Shown one piece after another: positions 1 through 44,314 of a stretch of DNA of 64,000 bases. Each line of letters begins with the position of its first letter. Within the stretch, counting starts at the first letter, position 1. The position numbers were made by a program, and so were the translations under genes. The stretch is from the NCBI GenBank assembly GCA_028873815.1, contig JAPPNN010000068.1:62001-126000 (forward strand), in the 5' to 3' direction. The stretch is from Gemmatimonadota bacterium (GTDB lineage: Bacteria > Gemmatimonadota > Gemmatimonadetes > Longimicrobiales > Gaopeijiaceae). The notes beneath the pieces are model-generated. The model was not told the origin of the DNA. It worked only from the letters and a program-made list of their open reading frames with translations, and searched no databases.

Positions 1-2
1 CG

Positions 3-407
3 CGCAAGCTGCGGAGCGACTTTCGGGACCCGGTCGAGGCGCGGCAACTGGCGCTGGGCGATTTCAACAAGCTCGATGCCCGGCACACCGATCTCGTCGG
101 CTTTGCGCACGACCTCGAGAAGAGCTGCCGGGGTGCACTCGACATGTACCGCACCGCCAACAGGGAAGCGCGAACCTTGCCGGAGCCGCAGATCTGGCAG
201 ACCTCGTGGGCGGCCGACTGGGATCTGCCGGAGGCCCCGGACGGGTCGCGGCTGATGAGCGAAGCGGAGGCGGAGGAGCGCAGCCGACTCATGCACGAGG
301 CGCTGGAGCAACGTGAGCGGAAACTGAGGGACTGCCACGATGAGTGCCGCGAGCTTGTGAACGAAATCACAAGGCTCGACCCGCACGACAAGGCCGTGCC
401 GACATGA
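3..407 (+). CDS. C-terminal part of an unknown protein, cut by window edge
   Basis: The frame is open from the first bases, so this is the last 134 residues of a longer protein whose start lies outside the window. What can be seen is charged and helical: a stretch from about residue 70 to 125 is rich in Glu, Arg and Leu and looks like a coiled coil (for example EAEAEERSRLMHEALEQRER). I recognise no domain. Its stop overlaps the next start in an ATGA at 404-407, so it is the upstream member of the coupled four-gene set that runs to 3856. In such a set it could be the catalytic or nucleotide-binding subunit, but nothing visible proves that. An internal ATG at 144 is not a convincing start because the frame continues upstream without a break. 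Confidence 0.7.
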   Translation, partial: RKLRSDFRDPVEARQLALGDFNKLDARHTDLVGFAHDLEKSCRGALDMYRTANREARTLPEPQIWQTSWAADWDLPEAPDGSRLMSEAEAEERSRLMHEALEQRERKLRDCHDECRELVNEITRLDPHDKAVPT

Positions 408-1222
408 GGCGACACCGGCGCAGGCGCGCGAACAAGCGAAAGAACCTGGCCGGGGCGGTCATCGGGGTGGTCGCCGCGCTGGTTCTGATCGCCCTGTTCG
501 TTCGTGGCCAGCGCCCGCGGCGCGCGTTCGACGCCGCCAACTGTCCGGAAGACGGCCGGTACGCGGCCCAGATCGCGATCCTGGTGGACCCCTCCGACAC
601 GCTGACCAACGTGCAGGAGGATTCGGGCGCACCCCGCGTCCTGGAACTCATCCAGAACGGCGCGCCCGAGACGGCCGAGATTCGGATCTACACCGTCGGG
701 CAGGCAGGCAGGGGCAACACGGGCGCCGTACTCAGGGTGTGCAAGCCCGCGCACCCGGACGATGTGTCTTCGGTCACGGGCAATCCCCAGTTGGCGGAAC
801 GCCGCTACCGCGACGAGTTCCTGGCGCCGGTCGAGCGCACGCTGGACGCGCTGCTCAACGTCGCGGGGGACTCGATCTCGCCGATCATGGAGGGCATGCA
901 GGTCGCCGCGGTGGGGGCGTTCCAGCCCCGTGCGGCCGACATCCCCCGCCAGCTCCTCGTCGTGTCCGACATGATCCAGAACTCGCGCAACCTCTCCTTC
1001 TACCGCGATCCCGTGGACTTCGGCCCGCTCGCGCGCACCCCGGACTATGGCACCCTCCGCGTCGACCTCTCCGGAGTCGAGGTGTCGGTGTTCCTGCTGG
1101 CCCGCCGGGGCCGGGCCGGCCGCATCCAGGGCGGTACGCTGCGCGGCTTCTGGGAGGACTATTTCCTGGACCAGGGAGCGTCGCCGCTCGCCCGGCCGAG
1201 ATGGATCATGGTGGAAGGATGA
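404..1222 (+). CDS. Membrane-anchored VWA-like protein
   Basis: A 272-residue protein. The start at 404 is chosen because its ATG overlaps the previous stop (ATGA); a start 20 codons upstream would extend deep into the preceding gene. Residues 2-13 are strongly basic and residues 14-33 form one transmembrane helix, so by the positive-inside rule the rest should face the periplasm. The strand IAILVDPSDT (about 57-66) looks like the metal-site motif of a von Willebrand factor A fold, with D-x-S-D-T in place of the usual DxSxS. A later QLLVVSDMIQNSR segment looks like the second metal-site loop. Its next neighbour is coupled by another ATGA. The VWA assignment rests on these motifs only. I infer a sensor or adaptor role in the membrane complex encoded around it. 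Confidence 0.72.
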   Translation: MRRHRRRRANKRKNLAGAVIGVVAALVLIALFVRGQRPRRAFDAANCPEDGRYAAQIAILVDPSDTLTNVQEDSGAPRVLELIQNGAPETAEIRIYTVGQAGRGNTGAVLRVCKPAHPDDVSSVTGNPQLAERRYRDEFLAPVERTLDALLNVAGDSISPIMEGMQVAAVGAFQPRAADIPRQLLVVSDMIQNSRNLSFYRDPVDFGPLARTPDYGTLRVDLSGVEVSVFLLARRGRAGRIQGGTLRGFWEDYFLDQGASPLARPRWIMVEG

Positions 1223-2628
1223 CGCCTGTCTCCGCACCCCGCTCCACCGCACACGCCGAAGAAACGCGCAGACAGCACCGCGACGCCTGGCTGATCGTAC
1301 TGGCCATCGGCTGCGCGATCATCCTCTTCGGGAACCTTCTCGGCATCGGGGCCTGGTGGCTCGCGTCGGCCGTCGCCGTGTGCATGGTCATCTATGGCAT
1401 CGGCATCCAGGTCTACATCGACAACAGCGACGTACCCGGCGACGTCAAGGGCGACTCGATCTACTACCTGGGGCTCCTCTTCACCTTCGCGGCTCTGGTT
1501 GCCGCGCTCATCACCTTCGACTGGGGCACGCCGGGCACGGACGGGAGCGGCACCACCGGATCGATCCGGAACTTCGGCATCGCGCTGCTGACGACGATCG
1601 TGGGGCTCGCGGGCCGCGTCTGGTTCACGATGTCTCAGGAGTCGCCCGGGGACATCGCGGATACCACCAGGTCCGAGCTCGAAGAGACGGTCTCCCTGAT
1701 GAAGGAAAGCCTCGACCGGGCGCGCGACGACCTGGACATCATGGCGAGCAAGTTCCGGGACTCGTCCGCGGGTCTCGCGAAGACGGCGGCCACAATCGCG
1801 GATAGCACGAAAAGAACGGCGGCGACGTACGAGGCGCTGGACGCATACACCGGGCAGGTTGCCGGCACCGCGGAGTCGCTCACCCATCAAATGGAACAGT
1901 TGAAAGGCGTGTGCGGCCTGTGTTCCAGCGCTCTCCTCTCGCTGCAGGAAACCGCGAGAGAGCTCGGTACGCATTTGGACGACGTGCCTGCCCGGCTCGG
2001 GAATCATTTCGACAGGGCGCAGGCCCAACTCACGAAAGCGGAAGCCACCTTCGACGGGATCAACAGGGTTGCAGGTCCCGCCGCGGAGAGAGTCGCCGAC
2101 ACCTTGCGGGGGGTGGAGGGCACCGCCGCCGCTGCGTCAGCGCTCGGCCGGTCCCTTTCCGGCATGCGGGGAAGCGCGGAGCAGGCAAGGAAGGCGCTCG
2201 CGGGCATCGCCGATGCGGTGGACGGTCAGGAGGCTCTGCCGCTTTGGAAGGAGTCGGTGGACCAACTGCACGAGGGGACGAGGGGTATCCGCGGGATTGC
2301 GACGCGCGCCGCCGCGATCAACGCCGAGTTCGAGGAACTCAGCGCATCACTGCGGGCCGCACGCGACGGGCTTGCCTCTATCCCCGGCAGGGCCCGCTCG
2401 ATCAACGAACAGCTTGGCGAGGCGCTTGACGAGGCTGTGCAGCAGGCCGGGGACCTGTCCGACAAGGTGCTGCGGGCCGCGCGGGCGGACGCGCGGGTGG
2501 ACGTGCGGGCTGAGCCGGCCCACGAACCGGGCGGTCGGATCCGGCAGGCGTTGGCCGGAACACGGCGAGCCCTGGCAGGGACACTCCGGGCCTGGAAGCG
2601 GCTGACCACGTTCCGGCGACAGCACTGA
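1219..2628 (+). CDS. TolQ/MotA-like membrane protein with long coiled coil
   Basis: A 469-residue protein starting in the ATGA overlap at 1219-1222. Four hydrophobic helices lie at about 23-43, 46-65, 82-99 and 115-135. The last carries FGIALLTTIVGLAGRVWF, which resembles the GxALxTTxxGL signature of TolQ/ExbB/MotA proton-channel subunits. After about residue 140 the rest of the protein (over 300 residues) is soluble, Ala/Glu/Arg-rich and built of heptads, which predicts a long cytoplasmic helical tail. TolQ and ExbB lack such a tail. ZorA of the Zorya defence system and some stator-like proteins have one. The family link is an inference from topology and motif. The following gene encodes a one-helix partner, the arrangement seen for ExbB-ExbD and MotA-MotB pairs. 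Confidence 0.7.
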   Translation: MTPVSAPRSTAHAEETRRQHRDAWLIVLAIGCAIILFGNLLGIGAWWLASAVAVCMVIYGIGIQVYIDNSDVPGDVKGDSIYYLGLLFTFAALVAALITFDWGTPGTDGSGTTGSIRNFGIALLTTIVGLAGRVWFTMSQESPGDIADTTRSELEETVSLMKESLDRARDDLDIMASKFRDSSAGLAKTAATIADSTKRTAATYEALDAYTGQVAGTAESLTHQMEQLKGVCGLCSSALLSLQETARELGTHLDDVPARLGNHFDRAQAQLTKAEATFDGINRVAGPAAERVADTLRGVEGTAAAASALGRSLSGMRGSAEQARKALAGIADAVDGQEALPLWKESVDQLHEGTRGIRGIATRAAAINAEFEELSASLRAARDGLASIPGRARSINEQLGEALDEAVQQAGDLSDKVLRAARADARVDVRAEPAHEPGGRIRQALAGTRRALAGTLRAWKRLTTFRRQH

Positions 2629-2641
2629 CGGGCCCCGACGG

Positions 2642-3856
2642 ATGTTGCCCGCCGAGAAGAAGCACTATCGGAAGGGACTCGCGCTGGGACTGACCCTGGC
2701 CGAGACGTTCAGCATCGTCGTCTTCATCCTGTTGCTTGCGTGCGCGGTCCTCCTCCGCTTCGAGCAATTCCAGCGCGACACGGCCGAGGCGCAACTCGAT
2801 ACCGCAAGAGTCGATCTCCACCTCACCCAGGAGATGCTGAACACGGAAACCAGTTCCTGGGGCAACGCGGACGCCTGGTACGAATACGCAAGGCAGCTTC
2901 GCGACACGGTGGAAGCGCTGCAGGCCCGGGTGTTCGACGCCGAGCGCGCGCGCGACCGCGCACGCATGCGTGCAGCGCAGGCGGATTCACTGCTGGCGGA
3001 CAACGGCATACCGGAGGAGTTCGCAGACCGGGCCGCGCGCCTCACGGGCGAACGCGACTCACTGAGGGCGGCCGCGGCCGAGAGCGACCGGCGTCTGCGG
3101 GAGGCCACGGCCCTGCGAGACTCGCTTGCACGGCGCCTTACCGACACGGAGAGAGTCGCCGACGAGCTTCGCGACGGTCTCGCCGGCGCCGACGGCCTGA
3201 CCCCGGAGGAGGCCGAGGACATCATCGGGCAGGCGGCACGGGCCTCCGACTTGCGCGACTCGCTGGACGCCGCCCGGAGGACGATCGGAGCCCTGGACCA
3301 GGAGCTCAGGACCGCCAGGACCGAGATGCTCGCGGACCCCGATTCCCTGGTCGACTCGCTGCGGGCCGGCCTCAGCGAGAGCCGGTTCCGCGAGGACACG
3401 TTGCGCAGCCGGGTCTGGGATGCCGAACGCGAACGGGACGACGCCGTCGGAAGGGCCGAGTACCGGGAAGCCCAGCTCGAGCAACTCCGTCAGGGCCGCG
3501 GTATTGATCCCCCGCCCTGCTGGCTCGATGGCGAGGGCAACCCCGAGTACATCTTCCGGATCGAGCTGACCGACGGCGGCATGCGCCTGTTCGGAATCGC
3601 CCCCGGACACAGGATCACAGGCGACCCCGATGCCACGAGGTACGCCGTAGCGATCGAGGAAGGCCGGGAGTACGCCCCGACGGAGTTTCTGCGCCTCACC
3701 CAGCCCTTCTACACCCTGGGCGTGTCCCGAACCCAGGCCTTTGGCCCCATGGGATGCCGCTTCTGGATCCGGCCAGTCGACCGGACCGGCGACCGCAAGG
3801 ACATCTTCCAGGAGCGCCAGGATCAACTGTGGCGGCGTTTCTGGTTTCGGTGGTAG
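2642..3856 (+). CDS. One-helix coiled-coil partner of the TolQ/MotA-like protein
   Basis: A 404-residue protein, 13 nt after its neighbour. A short charged N-terminus precedes one transmembrane helix at about 12-37 (GLTLAETFSIVVFILLLACA) with a Glu at position 21 near its start. ExbD and MotB carry their essential acidic residue in a comparable place, although there it is normally Asp. Residues 40-280 are a long coiled coil rich in RDSLR-type heptads. The last 120 residues form a separate domain with a PPCWLDGEGNPEYIF entry, a second Cys in PMGCRFWI and a very aromatic end (WRRFWFRW). I see no OmpA-like peptidoglycan-binding motif. Taken with the preceding gene, the simplest reading is a two-subunit ion-driven stator with an unfamiliar effector domain. 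This is unproven. Confidence 0.68.
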   Translation: MLPAEKKHYRKGLALGLTLAETFSIVVFILLLACAVLLRFEQFQRDTAEAQLDTARVDLHLTQEMLNTETSSWGNADAWYEYARQLRDTVEALQARVFDAERARDRARMRAAQADSLLADNGIPEEFADRAARLTGERDSLRAAAAESDRRLREATALRDSLARRLTDTERVADELRDGLAGADGLTPEEAEDIIGQAARASDLRDSLDAARRTIGALDQELRTARTEMLADPDSLVDSLRAGLSESRFREDTLRSRVWDAERERDDAVGRAEYREAQLEQLRQGRGIDPPPCWLDGEGNPEYIFRIELTDGGMRLFGIAPGHRITGDPDATRYAVAIEEGREYAPTEFLRLTQPFYTLGVSRTQAFGPMGCRFWIRPVDRTGDRKDIFQERQDQLWRRFWFRW

Positions 3857-28418: not shown

Positions 28419-29362
28419 GGTCGAAAGCCCCACACCGCCCGCTGAAGGGCCCGTAAGACCATGCCGCGGTCCCCCAGGCGGCGGCGCAGCTCCCGTTCGA
28501 GCCCTGCAATGGGATAGAGGTTCTGAGGCGCACGGTCGTCCTTGTGCGGCTCGGAAGCGAACCTGGGCAGCGCGGCACCGGTCGCGTCCGCAATCCTCCT
28601 GACCTTCTCCAGCCCGCTTTCGGACCACGCCTCGCACCGGACGATCCCGGCCCAGGGATGTCCGTCCGCCTCGCTGAGCCGCATATACCACGAATAGCGC
28701 GTCCATTTCGTCTGGATGAGAAACACCGGAGTGCGTTGTCCGGGTGCCAGGGCTGCGACCACTTTGCGCGGCCCGACGGGGAGGTATTGGACGCGATGGC
28801 TCTTGACGTAGCCGACCGCTCCCTGAATGCGCTGTCGGCCCCTTAGCGGACCGTCCAGGACGATCAGAGCGTCGGGGCTGCCAGCCGGGCCGGCCACCTC
28901 GACCTCCAGCAGTCCCATGCGCTCCTGCAGACCGTTGACCAGCTGCTGGATATCGTCCTCCGCCACGGGGCACCCCGCAAAGGTGCCGGCGCGGGTCGCA
29001 AGATCGGGAACCGGAGCCAGTGCGAAGAAGCCGCGGCCGACCTTCACCGCCCGTATCTCCGCCTTGCGGTCGCATCGGACTACGCCCGCCGCGTAGGAGG
29101 CGCAGATCCCGAGGCGAGCCTCCCCGTCTTCCCCGGTTATCCAGATCCTGGCTTCGATCCGCCGGACCCCGTCCACGAAGTCGACACTGGCGGGCATCCA
29201 TGCATCCGACCCCGGATCCACGGGACGCCATTCATCCTCCGGCACCTCTGCGCCTGCGTCGACCTGGGCTGCCGGCATCTCATCCTGATCGCCCTCTACC
29301 GGGGCGCCGTACTCTGGCGACCACCCCTCGATCGTTAGCCCCTCAACCCGTCGCACGCTCAC
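28415..29362 (-). CDS. nurA: NurA-like nuclease
   Basis: A 315-residue protein starting with a GTG that overlaps the SbcC stop (GTGA at 29359-29362). The key block MPASVDFVDGVRRIEARIWI (56-75) looks like the first NurA metal site (Asp61 and Asp64-Gly65 followed by a beta hairpin). A later LPRFASEPHKDDRAPQNLYPI region resembles the C-terminal NurA motif with its Asp/His. NurA is a 5'-3' nuclease that works with the HerA translocase. The presence of HerA, SbcD and SbcC in the same operon is the strongest argument for the call. The N-terminal 50 residues are acidic and not recognised. Divergence is high, so the identification is from motif plus context. Confidence 0.7.
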   Translation of the reverse strand: MSVRRVEGLTIEGWSPEYGAPVEGDQDEMPAAQVDAGAEVPEDEWRPVDPGSDAWMPASVDFVDGVRRIEARIWITGEDGEARLGICASYAAGVVRCDRKAEIRAVKVGRGFFALAPVPDLATRAGTFAGCPVAEDDIQQLVNGLQERMGLLEVEVAGPAGSPDALIVLDGPLRGRQRIQGAVGYVKSHRVQYLPVGPRKVVAALAPGQRTPVFLIQTKWTRYSWYMRLSEADGHPWAGIVRCEAWSESGLEKVRRIADATGAALPRFASEPHKDDRAPQNLYPIAGLERELRRRLGDRGMVLRALQRAVWGFRP

Positions 29363-32139
29363 GTCTCGACCCTCTCCACCGAGGACGCGTTGCCGACCTT
29401 CCGCACCTGGTACTGCACAGGGATGCGGTCCGCCAGTTCGGGAACGTGCGTCACCAGGCCCACCATGCGTTCCGCGCCGAGTTGCTCTATCGTGGCGGCC
29501 ACGACGTCGAGCGTCTCCGAATCGAGCGTGCCGAAACCCTCGTCGAGGAAAAGCGCCTCCAGTTTCGAGCTTCCCCTCGCGGCCAGGCTGGCAACCTGTT
29601 CGGCCAGCGACAGAGCGAGGGCCAACGAGGCGAGGAACGTCTCGCCCCCGGACAGCGTCTTCGCCAGCCGCGGTTCGTCAGCATTCCGGTGGTCGATCAC
29701 CAGGAACTCGTTTCGGTCGGAAAGATCGAGCGAGTACTGGCCGCTCGACAGTTCGCGCAGACGCGCGGTGGCACCCTCGACGAGCCAGGCGAGGATCTGG
29801 TTCTGCATCCAGGCGCCGAACTTCCTGGCACCGAGATGGTCGCCGAGATCCTTGGCGATACGGGCTCGGGAGCGGGTTTCGCCGGCTTCCGCTTCAACGC
29901 GCTTCCTGTCAGCAGCAGCGGTGTGAAGATGATCGAACTCCTTGCGGGCCGCGCCCAGTGCTTCCGAAACCTTTCGCCTGGGGTCTTCGCCCAGATCGAG
30001 GGAGAGGCCATCCTCCGTGCAGCGTGCCCGGATCCGCGCATCGAGTCGACCCTTCTCGCGGTCCGCGGCCGCGCGATCGGCATCGGCCTGGGCCATGACC
30101 GACTTCGTTGCCAGGTGGGTGCGTTCCGCCCACTGCGACAGGGTTTCCCAAGAGCCGGTCAGGTCTGTCTCGGCGAAATCCGGCGGCCGCATCTCGGCGA
30201 CGGAATCGCGAGCGCCGTGGTACTCTCTCCAGACCCCGCCGAGGCGTGACTTCCAGCGTTCCAACGTCTTCGAGGCTGTTTCCTGCGTCTGCCGGGTCGA
30301 CTCCTCCTCGGCTCGGGCCCGGCACACCAATTCGTCGGCCGCGCGGATTTCGTCCAGCAATCTTTTGGTTTCTTCCCGGGATCGTGCCGTCGCCAGGTCG
30401 CTACGCAGGGTCGCCGCGAACTTCTCCTGCTCCTTAAGCGTCGCGTCGGCGTGGTTGGCTTCACGCGCCCGTTCGGACCACGCGGTCACCGCGTCATTCA
30501 GGCGCTTCTCAAGACTTTGGACCCGCTTCTCGGTCTCGTCGACCTCGGCAATCCTGGCGGAGATCTCGGTTGGGGCAGGGGCGTCCGCGAGGGACTGCGC
30601 GAGGGAGCGCGCCGACTTCGTCTGCAGTTCCAGGTTGGTGGTGCACGCTGTCCGCGCCGCGGCACAACGATCCCGCTCCGCGGCGGCCTGTATGGACGCT
30701 TCCCGTGCCGTGGCCCGGCGGGTTCGAGCGGCGTCGAGGTCGGCGGGGGCGGCGCGGTCGGGCAGCCGCGCGACGGTCTGGAGGCAAACGGGACAGGGCC
30801 CGCCTTCCTGAAGATGATGGGCCATGTCGGCCGCGCTATGGGCGGTGCGCAACGTCCCAAAGGCCTGCGCCGCCGTTTCCAGTTCCCGATCCGCGTCGGT
30901 CTTTTTTCGCTCAGCCGCATTGTACGCCTGTTCGGCCCGGGTCAGTTCGCTCCGCACGCGCTCCAGTTCGTCCTCCAGCTTGCGGAACTGCTCGTGCTTC
31001 TGGCCAACGCTCTCCAGTTCCGAACGCTCGGGCAGCTCCTTCAAACGCAGTCTGGCGCTCTCGAACTCTTCGCGGATGGCCACCTTGTTCGTTACGGCCT
31101 CCTTCACCGCCTCCGTCGTCCCCTCGAAGTCAAGTCGGGTCCGTGTAATCTCCGCTTCCCTGCGCTCGAGTTGGTCGCGCATCTCCACCACCTTTTCGAT
31201 GGCAGCCTTCTCAGGCAGACCCGCCCTGGCTGACCCGGCATCGCGCAAGCGCCGGGCGGCGGCGTTCCACGCCTCGGCGGACTGCTGAAGCTTCTGTTCG
31301 GCCTCGCGGTGGCGGGTTGCCACGTCGGCAGTTCCATCCGGGACCCGGACCCTGGCCAGGAGATTCAGCTGCGCGGCCGCCTTCGTCGACCGACCGGCGG
31401 CGTCCTGTATCTTCGAGTCAAGGTCGCCAAACTGACCGGCGGCTTCGTCGACATGCCTACGGAGCCGAGCCAGCACCCCGACCCGGGCCTTGGCTGCCCA
31501 AACGGCATCCTGGGTCGCGTTTGCGAACACCGAATCCAATTGCCACTGCAGGTTGTCGGCTCGTCCCTCCTCGAGCTTCCACCGCATGTTCGCGGCCTTG
31601 CGCAGGCGCTCGTACAGCCCCAGTCCCAGCAACCGCTCAAGCAGTTGCTTGCGTTCACCGGGCTTCGAGCGAAGGAAGGCCGCGAAATCACCCTGCGGAA
31701 GCACGACGCACTTGGTGAAGTGGTCGAGGCCGAGGCCGATCACATCGTTCTGGACGCACGCCGACAGATCCGATTCCGTGGCCGCCAGCGTCTTCACGGG
31801 TTCGCCATCGGAACGCTCCTCGAGGCGGGCCTCCCGCGTGGTGGCTCCAGTTGCGGTGCGCTGCACGACCCTAACCGCTGTGTATCGCTTGCCCCGTGCC
31901 TCGAAATCGAGCCGTACCCGGGCGCGGACCTTCCCCTGGCTGATGACGGGCGCGATCAGGCTGACGTGGTCATACCGCGGTACCGATCCGTAGAGGGCGA
32001 AGATCATCGCGTCGATGAGGCTGGATTTCCCCGATCCTGTCGCCCCGGTGAACACCAGGAGGTTGGTGTCGGCAAAGTCGACGACCGTAGGCTCGCGGTA
32101 TGACGTGAAGCCCTCCAGCTCAAGTCGTAGCGGACGCAT
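29359..32139 (-). CDS. sbcC: SbcC/Rad50-type ATPase
   Basis: A 926-residue SMC-like ATPase. Walker A GATGSGKSS is at about 32-40, a Q-loop with VVLPQGDFAAFLRSKPGER near 145, and long coiled coils follow on both sides of the zinc hook CPVC (about 448-451). The signature TLSGGETFLASLALALSLA is near 825 and Walker B ALFLDEGFGTLD near 860. All elements needed for ATP-driven tethering and processing of DNA ends are present. The length is close to bacterial SbcC and archaeal Rad50. It overlaps the upstream sbcD gene by 20 nt and the downstream nurA-like gene by 4 nt. It should form the Mre11-Rad50-type complex with that SbcD. Confidence 0.93.
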   Translation of the reverse strand: MRPLRLELEGFTSYREPTVVDFADTNLLVFTGATGSGKSSLIDAMIFALYGSVPRYDHVSLIAPVISQGKVRARVRLDFEARGKRYTAVRVVQRTATGATTREARLEERSDGEPVKTLAATESDLSACVQNDVIGLGLDHFTKCVVLPQGDFAAFLRSKPGERKQLLERLLGLGLYERLRKAANMRWKLEEGRADNLQWQLDSVFANATQDAVWAAKARVGVLARLRRHVDEAAGQFGDLDSKIQDAAGRSTKAAAQLNLLARVRVPDGTADVATRHREAEQKLQQSAEAWNAAARRLRDAGSARAGLPEKAAIEKVVEMRDQLERREAEITRTRLDFEGTTEAVKEAVTNKVAIREEFESARLRLKELPERSELESVGQKHEQFRKLEDELERVRSELTRAEQAYNAAERKKTDADRELETAAQAFGTLRTAHSAADMAHHLQEGGPCPVCLQTVARLPDRAAPADLDAARTRRATAREASIQAAAERDRCAAARTACTTNLELQTKSARSLAQSLADAPAPTEISARIAEVDETEKRVQSLEKRLNDAVTAWSERAREANHADATLKEQEKFAATLRSDLATARSREETKRLLDEIRAADELVCRARAEEESTRQTQETASKTLERWKSRLGGVWREYHGARDSVAEMRPPDFAETDLTGSWETLSQWAERTHLATKSVMAQADADRAAADREKGRLDARIRARCTEDGLSLDLGEDPRRKVSEALGAARKEFDHLHTAAADRKRVEAEAGETRSRARIAKDLGDHLGARKFGAWMQNQILAWLVEGATARLRELSSGQYSLDLSDRNEFLVIDHRNADEPRLAKTLSGGETFLASLALALSLAEQVASLAARGSSKLEALFLDEGFGTLDSETLDVVAATIEQLGAERMVGLVTHVPELADRIPVQYQVRKVGNASSVERVET

Positions 32140-41369: not shown

Positions 41370-43187
41370 CTACGTCTCGGCCCGTCCCCGCCCCGTGAGG
41401 GGCCGCAGCTCCTCGCCCGGATTCACGAACCGGTTCAGTTCGATCCTGTACTGGCGGTCGTGCAGGTCCCGGTAGCGTCCGCCTGCGGCCATGAGCTGGT
41501 CGTGGGTGCCGCGCTCAACCACCCGGCCCTCCTCGATCACCAGAATCTGATCCGCGCTGCGAATGGTGGACAACCGATGCGCGATGACGAAGGTCGTCCG
41601 TCCCGACCGCAGCGCGCGCAAGCCCTCCTGGATCTGCGCCTCGCTCTCCGAGTCGAGGCTGGACGTGGCCTCGTCGAGCACAAGGATGCGCGGATCGGCC
41701 AGGATCGCACGGGCGATCGCGAGCCGCTGCCGCTGGCCACCGGAGACCTTTACGCCGCGCTCGCCGATCACGGTGTCGTAGCCGTCCGGGAAGCCCGTAA
41801 TGAACTCGTGGCAGTGCGCCAGCTTCGCGGCCTCCACGACCTCTTCCCTGGACGCGCGCGGGCGCCCGTAGCGGATGTTGTACTCGACCGTGTCGTCAAA
41901 GAGGAAGTTGTCCTGCAACACGACGCCCACGTGCCGCCGGTACTCGTCCAGCCGGATCTCCGCCAGGTCGCGGCCGTCCACGAGCACGCGCCCCGAATCC
42001 GGTGCGTTGAAGGACAGCACCAGTCCGGCCAGAGTGCTCTTTCCGGACCCCGACGACCCCACCAGCGCGGTCGTCGTGCCGGGTGGCGCGTCCAGCGAGA
42101 CATCCCGGAGGACGGGCACGTCGCTGTCGTACGCGAAGGACACGTTCTCGAAAGAGATCCATCCCTGGATCAGTCCCAGCGGCTTCTTGCCCAGGTCCCG
42201 GTCGGCCTCGGTGCTCATCGTCCGCAGCTCCCGGATGCGGTCCAGGCCCGCGAACGCCTCGGTGATCTGCGTGCCGATGCTCGCGATCTGGACCAGCGGA
42301 CCCGCCATCATCCCCGTGAGGATCAGGTACATCACGAAGTCGCCAAGGGTCATGGCTTCGGTGACGATCGCGCGGCCCCCGACGAGGATCATCACCACGC
42401 TGATGAGCCCGATGATCACCGAGGAGAACGACGTTACGGCCGAGACTCCGGTCACCGATTTGGCCACGTTGCGCAGCAGCCGGTGCGCCCCCTTCGCGAA
42501 GACCCTGTCTTCCGTCCGTTCCGAGGTGTATGCCTTCACGATGCGCACGCCCGCCAGGCTCTCGCCGAGCCGGCCGGTCACCTCCGCATTGATCCGGCCC
42601 CGCTCCCGGAACAGCGGCCTGAGGCGCCTGAAGGCGATGGCCATGGCGCCCCCGAAGACGAGCAGGATCGACATGGTGAAGAGGGTGAGAACCCAGTTGA
42701 CGTACATCAGGATGGCGAAGCAGGTCGCCGACATGACCAAGCCGCCCGTCAACTGAACCAGCCCCGTGCCGACGAGATTCCTTATCCCCTCTGCGTCGGT
42801 CATGATCCGCGAAATCAGAACCCCGGACTTCGTGGAATCGAAGTAGTTGACCGGCAGGCGCGCGACGTGGGCCTGCACCGTCTTCCGCATTTCCGTGATT
42901 GCGCGCTGCGCCGTGACACCGAGGATCTGGGACAGCGCGAACGAGCTTACCCCCTGCACGAGCGCCGCCGCTCCCACCACGATCGCGAGCGGCAACAGCA
43001 GATCGGTCCGGCCCTGGCCGACCACATCGTCGATCAGGAATTTCGACGAAGCGGGCGCAACAAGCCCGGCCAGACGGCCGATCACCATGACCAGCAGACC
43101 GAAGGCGACCCGTCCGCGATACCGCCAGATGATCGCCTTCGCCTCCCTCCACACCCTTTCCCGCTTCAGCTTCCTCTTCTCCGTCAC
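41370..43187 (-). CDS. ABC exporter, fused permease and ATPase (MsbA type)
   Basis: A 605-residue half-transporter. The GTG at 43187 is chosen because the coding pattern and basic N-terminus (VTEKRKLKRERVW) begin there and AGGGG lies 8 nt upstream. Six helices (about 25-330) form an ABC_membrane domain. The ATPase has GSSGSGKSTLAG (Walker A), Q-loop VLQDNFLFDD, signature VSGGQRQRLAIARA, Walker B ILVLDEATSSLD and H-loop IAHRLST, all intact. This is the homodimeric exporter class that includes MsbA and multidrug pumps. The nearby genes do not fix the cargo. Its 180-bp upstream gap has a 19-bp tandem repeat. Confidence 0.9.
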   Translation of the reverse strand: MTEKRKLKRERVWREAKAIIWRYRGRVAFGLLVMVIGRLAGLVAPASSKFLIDDVVGQGRTDLLLPLAIVVGAAALVQGVSSFALSQILGVTAQRAITEMRKTVQAHVARLPVNYFDSTKSGVLISRIMTDAEGIRNLVGTGLVQLTGGLVMSATCFAILMYVNWVLTLFTMSILLVFGGAMAIAFRRLRPLFRERGRINAEVTGRLGESLAGVRIVKAYTSERTEDRVFAKGAHRLLRNVAKSVTGVSAVTSFSSVIIGLISVVMILVGGRAIVTEAMTLGDFVMYLILTGMMAGPLVQIASIGTQITEAFAGLDRIRELRTMSTEADRDLGKKPLGLIQGWISFENVSFAYDSDVPVLRDVSLDAPPGTTTALVGSSGSGKSTLAGLVLSFNAPDSGRVLVDGRDLAEIRLDEYRRHVGVVLQDNFLFDDTVEYNIRYGRPRASREEVVEAAKLAHCHEFITGFPDGYDTVIGERGVKVSGGQRQRLAIARAILADPRILVLDEATSSLDSESEAQIQEGLRALRSGRTTFVIAHRLSTIRSADQILVIEEGRVVERGTHDQLMAAGGRYRDLHDRQYRIELNRFVNPGEELRPLTGRGRAET

Positions 43188-43269
43188 GCCCCTCGCCCCT
43201 GTTGGTTCGTCGGTACCGGAACGAAAGGGTAGCGGAGACACCCGCAGACCGCCAAGCGCGTATGTGGAC

Positions 43270-43307
43270 TGCCCGCGGTGGAGCACCGTGCCCGCGGTGG
43301 AGCACCG
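43270..43307. repeat. Perfect tandem 19-bp repeat upstream of the ABC exporter
   Basis: tgcccgcggtggagcaccg is present twice, at 43270-43288 and 43289-43307. Each copy contains the dyad CGGTG-GAG-CACCG. The pair lies 83 to 120 nt upstream of the exporter start, where an operator would be expected. The full 180-bp gap has no gene. Confidence 0.65.
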
Positions 43308-43366
43308 GGCGCGCCGCCCCACCCGTGTCGCGTGAGGGGGCAGCGGCGCCCGTGCTGTGCGGCCCG

Positions 43367-44314
43367 CTACGCTCCCAGACCGTGCGGCCACGGATCGCCG
43401 CCGGGCGGGACCGCGCGCTCCCGTGTGTATCTCTCCGCCAGTTGACCCGTCACAAACGCGTCCAACTCGCGTACGTCCCGGCCGGCACCTTGCAGGGCCG
43501 CCAGCAGGTTCCTTCGGAACAGCGGGTTGCTACCGTCGAGCGTGACTGCGAGGGCAAGGGGCCCGATGGCGTCTTCGAAGCGGCCATGTTCGATCAACAG
43601 GTAGCCCATGTTGTTCAGTGCCCACACGTCTTCCGAGTCGACCCGAAGTGCCTCTTCGTAGCTCGCAAGCGCGCTCGAGCAATCACCGCTCTCGGCCTGG
43701 GCGCGAGCGAGGGTGCGCCACGCTGCGGACGACCCGGAATCGAGATCGGTCGCGATGCCGGCATGCTCCCGGGCCTCGTAAGGGCGGCCGATCTCGATGA
43801 GCGCCCGCGCCAGGTTCACGCGGCCCCTGGCGTGATCGGGCCGGCGAGCCACCCACGCCCGGAGGTGCTCCTCGGCGCCTTCCGGATCGCCGTCGCGCCA
43901 CGCAGCAATCCCGAGCGAATAGCGATCCAATGGTGCGACCGCCCTGCCGTCCCGCGGGGACGCATCGGAGATCGTTGCCGACGCATCGGGGACCGGTGCC
44001 GGCGCATCCGAGACCGCTGGCGAGGCGTCCGGGGTCGGTGGCGAGGCGTCCGGGGTCGGCGCGCTCACCTCCGGCGCCGCGTCCCCCCGCCTCTGCACCC
44101 GCTCCTCCCGAATCGCCGCGGTCGTCTCGAACATCGTAGACGATTCGGTCACCCCGGTCGTCTCGATCTCCGCAATCGCCACCTCGCCCACAGGCACTTC
44201 CCCGTCCTCGTCCGTGCACGCCGCGGCGCCCGCGAAGAAAGCAAGCGCCAGTCCCACGGCACTCCAGCGCAGCAACGCCTCCGAACGATCCCTCTCCATC
44301 GTCGTGTACTTCAT
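43367..44314 (-). CDS. TPR lipoprotein
   Basis: A 315-residue protein. GGGAGG lies 7 nt before the ATG at 44314. A lipoprotein signal (LALAFFAGAAAC) ends near Cys32. Residues 70-120 form a Pro/Asp/Ala/Ser low-complexity linker with repeats of the type PDASP. From 125 on there are four to five tetratricopeptide repeats, for example YSLGIAAWRDGDPEGAEEHLRAWVARRPDHARGRVNLARALIEIG. TPR domains bind other proteins; nothing enzymatic is seen. It lies 265 nt downstream of the response-regulator gene, on the same strand, and has its own ribosome binding site. It may or may not be read with the two-component genes. Confidence 0.82.
   Translation of the reverse strand: MKYTTMERDRSEALLRWSAVGLALAFFAGAAACTDEDGEVPVGEVAIAEIETTGVTESSTMFETTAAIREERVQRRGDAAPEVSAPTPDASPPTPDASPAVSDAPAPVPDASATISDASPRDGRAVAPLDRYSLGIAAWRDGDPEGAEEHLRAWVARRPDHARGRVNLARALIEIGRPYEAREHAGIATDLDSGSSAAWRTLARAQAESGDCSSALASYEEALRVDSEDVWALNNMGYLLIEHGRFEDAIGPLALAVTLDGSNPLFRRNLLAALQGAGRDVRELDAFVTGQLAERYTRERAVPPGGDPWPHGLGA

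Follow-up and report, generated by a model that had tools for sequence, protein, structure and literature searches.

What are four tightly packed genes at the edge of a Gemmatimonadota DNA stretch, one encoding a VWA-like protein and the next a protein reminiscent of motor channels, doing together? The stretch comprises 64,000 nucleotides of contig JAPPNN010000068.1 (positions 62,001 to 126,000), and the whole of it is called the window below; the genes are designated A, B, C, and D in operon order, and L and G numbers denote the loci and genomes compared. An earlier note on this DNA had proposed an ion-driven motor joined to a VWA sensor and to an unknown protein. Of that proposal, the VWA fold, the motor signature, and gene A were found, ion flow and sensing being the parts that we infer. 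The anatomy of a motor plus a VWA protein, taken alone, is held with high confidence; for A-B-C-D as a whole, we lean toward an ion-driven, 5:2-type motor coupled to the VWA protein and a four-helix partner, most likely serving defense in the manner of Zorya.

Four genes kept together as an accessory unit

The four genes lie on one strand with 4-base overlaps at the A/B and B/C junctions and a 13-base gap between C and D, confirming the coupled arrangement first noticed, and reading the sequence upstream of the window completed the protein cut by its edge, now gene A (Table 1). The GC content of A to D (0.68 to 0.70) equals that of the window (0.68). In a protein collection, with about 8,000 candidates scored for each query, at least 160 homologues of D and at least 111 of C were found at E ≤ 0.001; the organisms among the matches listed are Gemmatimonadetes or Gemmatimonadota metagenome-assembled genomes. 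At 14 of 15 Gemmatimonadota loci, A-B-C-D occur in this order on one strand. The 15th (L015) has a D homologue alone, the other three genes being absent, and the D frame of genome G139, apparently on the same contig, contains two stop codons; at L007, the match to A starts only at residue 112. Neighboring genes vary between loci, except in a clade (L003, L004, L005, and L018) that shares the window's site and in smaller groups with few common neighbors. Each of the four proteins yields a family alignment with invariant columns, which together with the preserved order indicates that the module is more than a product of chance; fortuitous adjacency was rejected on these grounds.

The distribution of the genes is patchy. 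Among 395 sampled genomes of the phylum, 24 contain a D match at E ≤ 0.001, of which 16 are full-length or nearly so and one is divergent and partial (G167); the seven others are short, weak matches and were not counted. A strong B match was found in 16 of the 395 genomes, all of them within the 17 with D, and the single genome with D and no strong B match is G139; six further genomes have weak B matches only. Within the window's genus, D is present in 14 of 23 sampled genomes, one copy being broken (G139), and one more genome retains a trace. Given the matching gene order, the co-occurrence of B and D, and this patchiness, A-B-C-D is, within these searches, a unit and an accessory one.

Channel, partner, and VWA proteins

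Hydropathy analysis (19-residue window, as for all four proteins) places three helices of C over the threshold. The AlphaFold model has four (residues 10 to 40, 45 to 67, 74 to 102, and 112 to 139), followed by a helical tail to residue 468; the mean predicted local distance difference test score is 66.2 for the whole protein and mostly 80 to 90 over the first 140 residues. The four-helix protein with a tail of more than 300 residues (143 to 469) that had been read from the sequence is thereby borne out, and C contains FGIALLTTIVGL, as first described. T89 and T126 are threonine in 32 of 32 aligned rows, and T125 is threonine in 23 and serine in 9. When the 32-row profile of the channel region was aligned with a TolQ/ExbB/MotA/ZorA-like set, collected via PF01618, hhalign returned E = 9.7e-6 (probability, 82.6) with both threonine motifs in register, compared with 0.0064 to 0.72 for five control families in the same run. 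The suspected relation to TolQ and MotA is supported by this alignment. In an earlier run with 111 rows, nearly all from Gemmatimonadota, the TolQ set scored 0.0013, a ZorA-like pair 0.0031, and controls 0.042 to 0.29.

The partner protein D has one helix (residues 19 to 37), with Glu21 at its start. This glutamate follows a G-x-T-x-A motif in 118 of 121 homologues (the motif was not found in 3) and is kept in all 20 rows of an alignment spanning Gemmatimonadota and the alphaproteobacterial relatives described below. Two cysteines fall within the last 125 residues in 119 of the 121. HMMER searches of the PDB sequences returned no relative of the end domain, coiled coils for D as a whole, and nothing at 0.01 for the two-lineage D alignment, and an OmpA-like end, looked for in the window's D with family models and profile alignment, was not found. 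The alphaproteobacterial versions differ at this end: PF00691 matches 6 of 7 at E ≤ 0.01 (three of them reach or exceed the cut-off, and Microvirga L128 has no match), their OmpA-like end aligns with ZorB/MotB-type proteins at 1.9e-8, and Rhizobium johnstonii D matches the PADLOC model ZorB1 at 8.2e-6. Thus, the one-helix partner with an acid near the helix start and a separate C-terminal domain is confirmed, and its assignment to the MotB/ZorB type is clearest in the alphaproteobacterial versions with an OmpA-like distal domain.

B also has a single helix (residues 15 to 33). Foldseek and VIA searches with its AlphaFold model list VWA domains, and the one-helix VWA-like protein of the earlier note therefore stands. 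Sequence comparison reaches this fold by a longer path. No Pfam VWA model matched at E ≤ 1, and direct alignment with VWA_2 proteins scored 0.17 in hhalign; a chain through the B-like protein of L083 connects the two (B to L083, 5.7e-8; L083 to VWA_2, 1.3e-4). Against PDB sequences, B alone had no HMMER match, and its 31-row profile had four weak ones, two of them VWA proteins (best E, 0.18). Four residues in near-invariant or invariant columns (D62, S64, S159, and D189) would form a metal site, judging from the VWA fold. By eye, the B alignment has neither a conserved histidine nor an acid in the helix. Helix regions of A were predicted at residues 139 to 157, 163 to 190, 204 to 222, and 305 to 323, and HMMER found two weak, unrelated matches to A among PDB sequences.

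Several results weigh against a motor. None of A to D reached a curated family model (Pfam, PADLOC, or NCBIfam), the weak matches being mostly to coiled coils. In the 111-row run, C matched neither a single MotA-type protein (0.2) nor an ExbB-with-VWA type (0.24). The channel region alone retrieved no motor chain from the PDB sequences by HMMER, and the whole C model had coiled coils and no motor among the Foldseek and VIA matches listed, because the coiled coil filled those lists. The D helix region alone aligned with ZorB/MotB at 0.079, which is not significant (control A, 0.015). Likewise, C did not match PF01618, the MotA/TolQ/ExbB proton channel family, and fell short of the ZorA models (NF033914, 8.7 bits against a cut-off of 190; PADLOC ZorA, E = 0.0011 or worse, with none on the channel helices alone). 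The C profile retrieved coiled coils and one ZorA chain (8vvn_C, aligned over residues 78 to 443) from the PDB sequences; the latter was not counted because the coiled coil dominates the alignment. Given these misses and an hhalign probability no higher than that above, C might be a four-helix coiled-coil protein whose threonine motifs are a chance likeness, so that C-D would be no motor at all. We consider this very improbable: both threonine-bearing helices lie in register with TolQ/ExbB and the ZorA-like pair, the product of the gene that follows has a single helix and an invariant acid, with an OmpA-like end in relatives, and PF01618 does match the divergent C of L043, albeit weakly (E = 0.0071; 16.5 bits, below the cut-off of 22.9).

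Plasmid relatives, defense neighbors, and possible function

Divergent relatives extend the unit beyond its phylum. L043, from G167, preserves the gene order as A′-B′-C′-D′, B′ being 25 to 33% identical to seven other members, and a search with this B′ yielded 23 plasmid records. With R. johnstonii B as the query, 24 of 72,556 plasmid records were found, from Rhizobium (12), Paracoccus (6), Sinorhizobium (3), Microvirga (2), and Tistrella (1). Sixteen of the 24, several of them near-identical, were inspected by tblastn with R. johnstonii A to D: the order A-B-C holds at every one of these 16 loci, and D was found at 13. The remaining three, all from Paracoccus, carry at the D position two genes annotated as OmpA family and one as hypothetical, and the two Paracoccus genes that were aligned have the D N terminus. 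Profile alignments between the Gemmatimonadota and alphaproteobacterial families scored 1e-51 for A and 2e-11 for D, the latter limited to residues 7 to 63 of the window-type D, and two-lineage alignments of 11 rows each retain 13 invariant columns in C and 17 in B. Searches of plasmids and phages with L043 D (tblastn) and of phages with R. johnstonii B returned nothing.

A staphylococcal-nuclease gene adjoins the operon in 10 of the 16 plasmid loci (L124, L126, L127, L128, L132, L133, L134, L136, L137, and L138), although at L127 it lies one gene away; L135 holds a nuclease remnant, and no nuclease gene was found at L125, L129, L130, L131, or L139. PF00565 was confirmed in both nucleases tested (L128 and L043). 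The gene occurs in three arrangements: convergent after D, before A, or after D in the same direction. Among 60 nuclease matches listed, 19 are at least 49% identical to the operon-linked TA1 nuclease, and 14 of these 19 are in operon-bearing records. The nuclease search matched at least 5,000 plasmid records, and genes for such nucleases are therefore common on plasmids as such.

This last point, together with the 11 conjugative and 4 mobilizable plasmids among the 24 records, would suit control of DNA entry or exchange as a function of a plasmid or island, either by entry exclusion or by nuclease breakdown of outside DNA, rather than phage defense. Such a function seems unlikely to us, since 9 of the 24 records are nonmobilizable and the chromosomal copies in Gemmatimonadota stand beside Gabija, Bunzi, and other defense genes.

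To characterize those neighbors, ten flanking genes from seven Gemmatimonadota loci (L006, L007, and L009 to L013) were scanned with PADLOC. Seven of the ten genes, at 5 of the 7 loci, match defense models at E < 1e-60 (Table 1); the three others are one each in L006, L007, and L011. At L043, a SNF2 helicase (BrxHI, 2.1e-73; DrmD, 2.3e-69) and a WYL gene were found, along with three further genes without a match; the helicase also matches ZorD1 (4.1e-40), with other helicase models scoring better. L077 contains two Orf5/HEC-06-type genes (1.2e-102 and 5.3e-79) and weaker matches. In Sinorhizobium fredii (L127), a PD-Lambda-1 gene (5.8e-170), annotated DUF4041, lies near the operon; we take it to belong to the same family as SNIPE. 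Upstream of the window's operon lies a divergent gene, read by us as encoding a type III glutamine synthetase; the gene on the downstream side, on the opposite strand, is presumably multicopper-oxidase-like. Between the same two genes, the operon is replaced in G067 by PDC-S01 (2.2e-86), PIN-like (no match), and RmrA-like (3e-20) genes, and the D of G067 is on another contig.

The neighborhood, the patchiness, the nuclease link, and the likeness to Zorya all argue for defense, and because the same set stands beside antivirus genes in very different bacteria, A-B-C-D may represent an as yet undescribed system related to the Zorya antiphage machines. Of the two guesses first offered, defense or envelope stress, the neighbor context thus favors the former, with an envelope role as the main rival. 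The case for defense has to be set against several findings. The ten flanking genes are not a random sample, having been picked for being large and promising, and the 1e-60 threshold was drawn once the results were known. None of ten large genes from the window itself matches a PADLOC model at E < 1e-60 (three match more weakly; best, 1e-30), and the four upstream genes of L003 have no match at 1e-5. The nuclease was not found with Paracoccus, Tistrella, or one Sinorhizobium locus, and among the Gemmatimonadota loci searched, it occurs only at L043 (G167), where another gene separates it from D. No effector gene was found near the window's copy of the operon.

The ordinary neighbors of the window's copy would also fit an envelope force transducer, in which B and A, powered by the C-D motor, would exert a pull on outer-membrane or surface structures or organize them for stability, adhesion, or gliding, with no part in defense. 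VWA proteins encoded beside tolQ-like motor genes have been proposed to be force transducers (PMC12204202), and D of the relatives ends in an OmpA-like domain, a wall-binding type. We regard this rival as rather doubtful given the patchiness within one genus, the repeated placement beside defense genes and a nuclease, and a B helix that, by eye, lacks the His motif and acid of those transducers. The pairs described there resemble the present operon in that an inner-membrane-tethered VWA protein is encoded beside a TolQ-like motor gene. They differ in that here a separate protein, D, has the acid and B, by eye, has neither a His motif nor a pore acid, and in that the four-helix A is always present, whereas TPR genes or VWA genes in pairs take its place in the published families. 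The window's own genome also encodes another ExbB-like gene beside a VWA-like gene (L120:604-2541, also L121 and L123), which recalls the pairs of PMC12204202.

Compared with MotAB, TolQR, and ExbBD, the operon shares threonine-bearing channel helices in C and a one-helix partner with an acid in D; the sequences are very diverged, C has a long helical tail, and the gene set is different. A plain TolQR or ExbBD system was rejected.

The operon also resembles Zorya. C is a channel protein with a long tail, D is a partner with a single, acid-bearing helix, the partner ends in an OmpA-like domain in the alphaproteobacterial D, a nuclease gene lies nearby in many alphaproteobacterial loci, and A-B-C-D is accessory and often found among defense genes. 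Zorya defense depends on ion flow as well as on the tail of ZorA and the peptidoglycan-binding domain of ZorB, and its acid is an aspartate (D24 and D21) packed on a Ser/Thr ring (PMC11890865). The glutamate of D differs from this aspartate, which also counts against a defense motor of the Zorya type. Furthermore, the window's proteins reach no ZorA or ZorB model, the VWA protein B and the membrane protein A are added, and the window's D lacks the OmpA-like domain. Neither ZorC/D nor ZorE was found beside the window's motor pair; A and B flank C-D, and the large neighbors match no Zor model at 1e-5. Plain Zorya was therefore rejected for the window's copy, in which the ZorA model, the ZorB-type end, the aspartate, and the ZorC/D/E neighbors were all missing. 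By the tested features, A-B-C-D falls outside Zorya, although its mode of action may be similar. Genes that look, by eye, like true ZorA and ZorB occur in two genomes of the window's genus (L115:2168-5193 and L116:427-3512). SNIPE (PD-Lambda-1; PMC13190303) is similar in placing a nuclease at the envelope and different in being a single membrane nuclease with no motor.

Literature searches among open PubMed Central papers listed no description of the A-B-C-D set, although other papers may contain one. The earlier claim that no described system has this exact set accordingly holds for the literature searched, with the qualification that a VWA protein beside a TolQ-like motor has precedent (PMC12204202).

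On the favored reading, that of a defense motor, A-B-C-D would form one envelope machine. Five C subunits around two D helices would make an ion channel, a 5:2 stoichiometry that we infer from homology, and the ion path would run past the invariant D glutamate and the C threonines. The long C tail would lie in the cytoplasm, the D coiled coil would reach into the periplasm, where the end domain may anchor or sense, and the VWA domain of B would likewise be periplasmic, with A as its four-helix partner. The periplasmic portions of B and D could detect an envelope disturbance during DNA entry, upon which ion flow would be released and a shift of A-B or the C tail would activate or recruit an effector. 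In Alphaproteobacteria, the candidate effector is the neighboring staphylococcal-type nuclease, whose signal-like start suggests periplasmic action, and the target would be phage or other incoming DNA. Distinctly more tentative, and possible rather than probable, is the fuller picture of an undescribed, widespread, motor-driven immune machine in which an ion-driven rotor, together with a VWA sensor and the four-helix protein, would monitor the envelope and set a secreted nuclease loose on invading DNA within the periplasm, the outer end of D being interchangeable between an OmpA-like and an unfamiliar two-cysteine domain. No ion-driven motor other than Zorya has, to our knowledge, been shown to act in immunity. 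If the defense reading is right, another such motor set, strongly diverged, equipped with a VWA subunit and, in one lineage, linked to a nuclease, would suggest repeated recruitment of motors for defense, and how such motors sense DNA entry would become a testable question. The operon is present in sequenced Rhizobium strains, including R. johnstonii 3841 on pRL11, which makes an experimental test practical.

Feature coordinates and A-B pairs

Table 1. Features of the operon and strongest defense-model matches at related loci (window coordinates unless a locus is given)
Feature	Position	Strand	Details
Gene A, 3′ part	1..407	+	Whole gene L003:10899-12407, starting 1,102 bases before the window; 502 residues; four predicted membrane helices
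Gene B	404..1222	+	272 residues; one N-terminal helix, then VWA domain (model, fold searches)
Metal-site-like residues of B	587..970	+	D62 587-589, S64 593-595, S159 878-880, D189 968-970; near-invariant or invariant columns
Gene C	1219..2628	+	469 residues; MotA/TolQ/ExbB/ZorA-like channel protein, long helical tail
Channel-type threonines of C	1483..1596	+	T89 1483-1485; T125-T126 1591-1596; in register with TolQ/ExbB
Helical, coiled-coil-like tail of C	1645..2625	+	Residues 143-469; family scans, AlphaFold model
Gene D	2642..3856	+	404 residues; one-helix partner, coiled coil, end domain
Glu21 of D	2702..2704	+	Start of D helix
End domain of D	3494..3853	+	Residues 285-404, about 120 residues; two conserved Cys; unlike the OmpA-like end of alphaproteobacterial relatives
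PADLOC matches at E < 1e-60			L006 PDC-S01, GajB; L010 GajA, GajB; L009 PDC-S37; L012 BnzA; L013 type III methyltransferase

Elsewhere in the window, large genes on the minus strand at 29362-32139 and 41373-43391 have weak ATPase-type PADLOC matches (LmuB, 2.4e-26, and mad3, 1e-30).

Whether homologues keep their neighbors or occur singly had been proposed as a check on the module, and the outcome is mixed. The full set is kept at the 14 Gemmatimonadota loci described above, but gene lists of six loci (L076 and L078 to L082) contain divergent A-like and B-like genes with no C or D alongside, L083 holds a looser A-B pair, and D is missing at L077 (L077:2347-15493), where A-B-C adjoin an integrase-like gene and the two DUF262-type (Orf5/HEC-06) genes. 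By profile alignment, the window-type proteins match the A-B-pair type at 1.1e-20 for B and 1.5e-15 for A; A against the L083 gene scored 0.05, which is not significant. Since A-B pairs exist without C-D, A-B is a module that can be coupled to the motor. In three genomes of the window's genus (L076:666-2872, L078:8055-10258, and L079:2042-4248), the pair stands beside genes that we take to be imuB- and/or dnaE2-like. Two further pairs were noted in passing: at L080:7440-10794, a divergent pair is directly followed by another A-type gene, and at L082:8532-10681, one lies near genes that look, by eye, conjugation-like (TrbL/VirB4 type).

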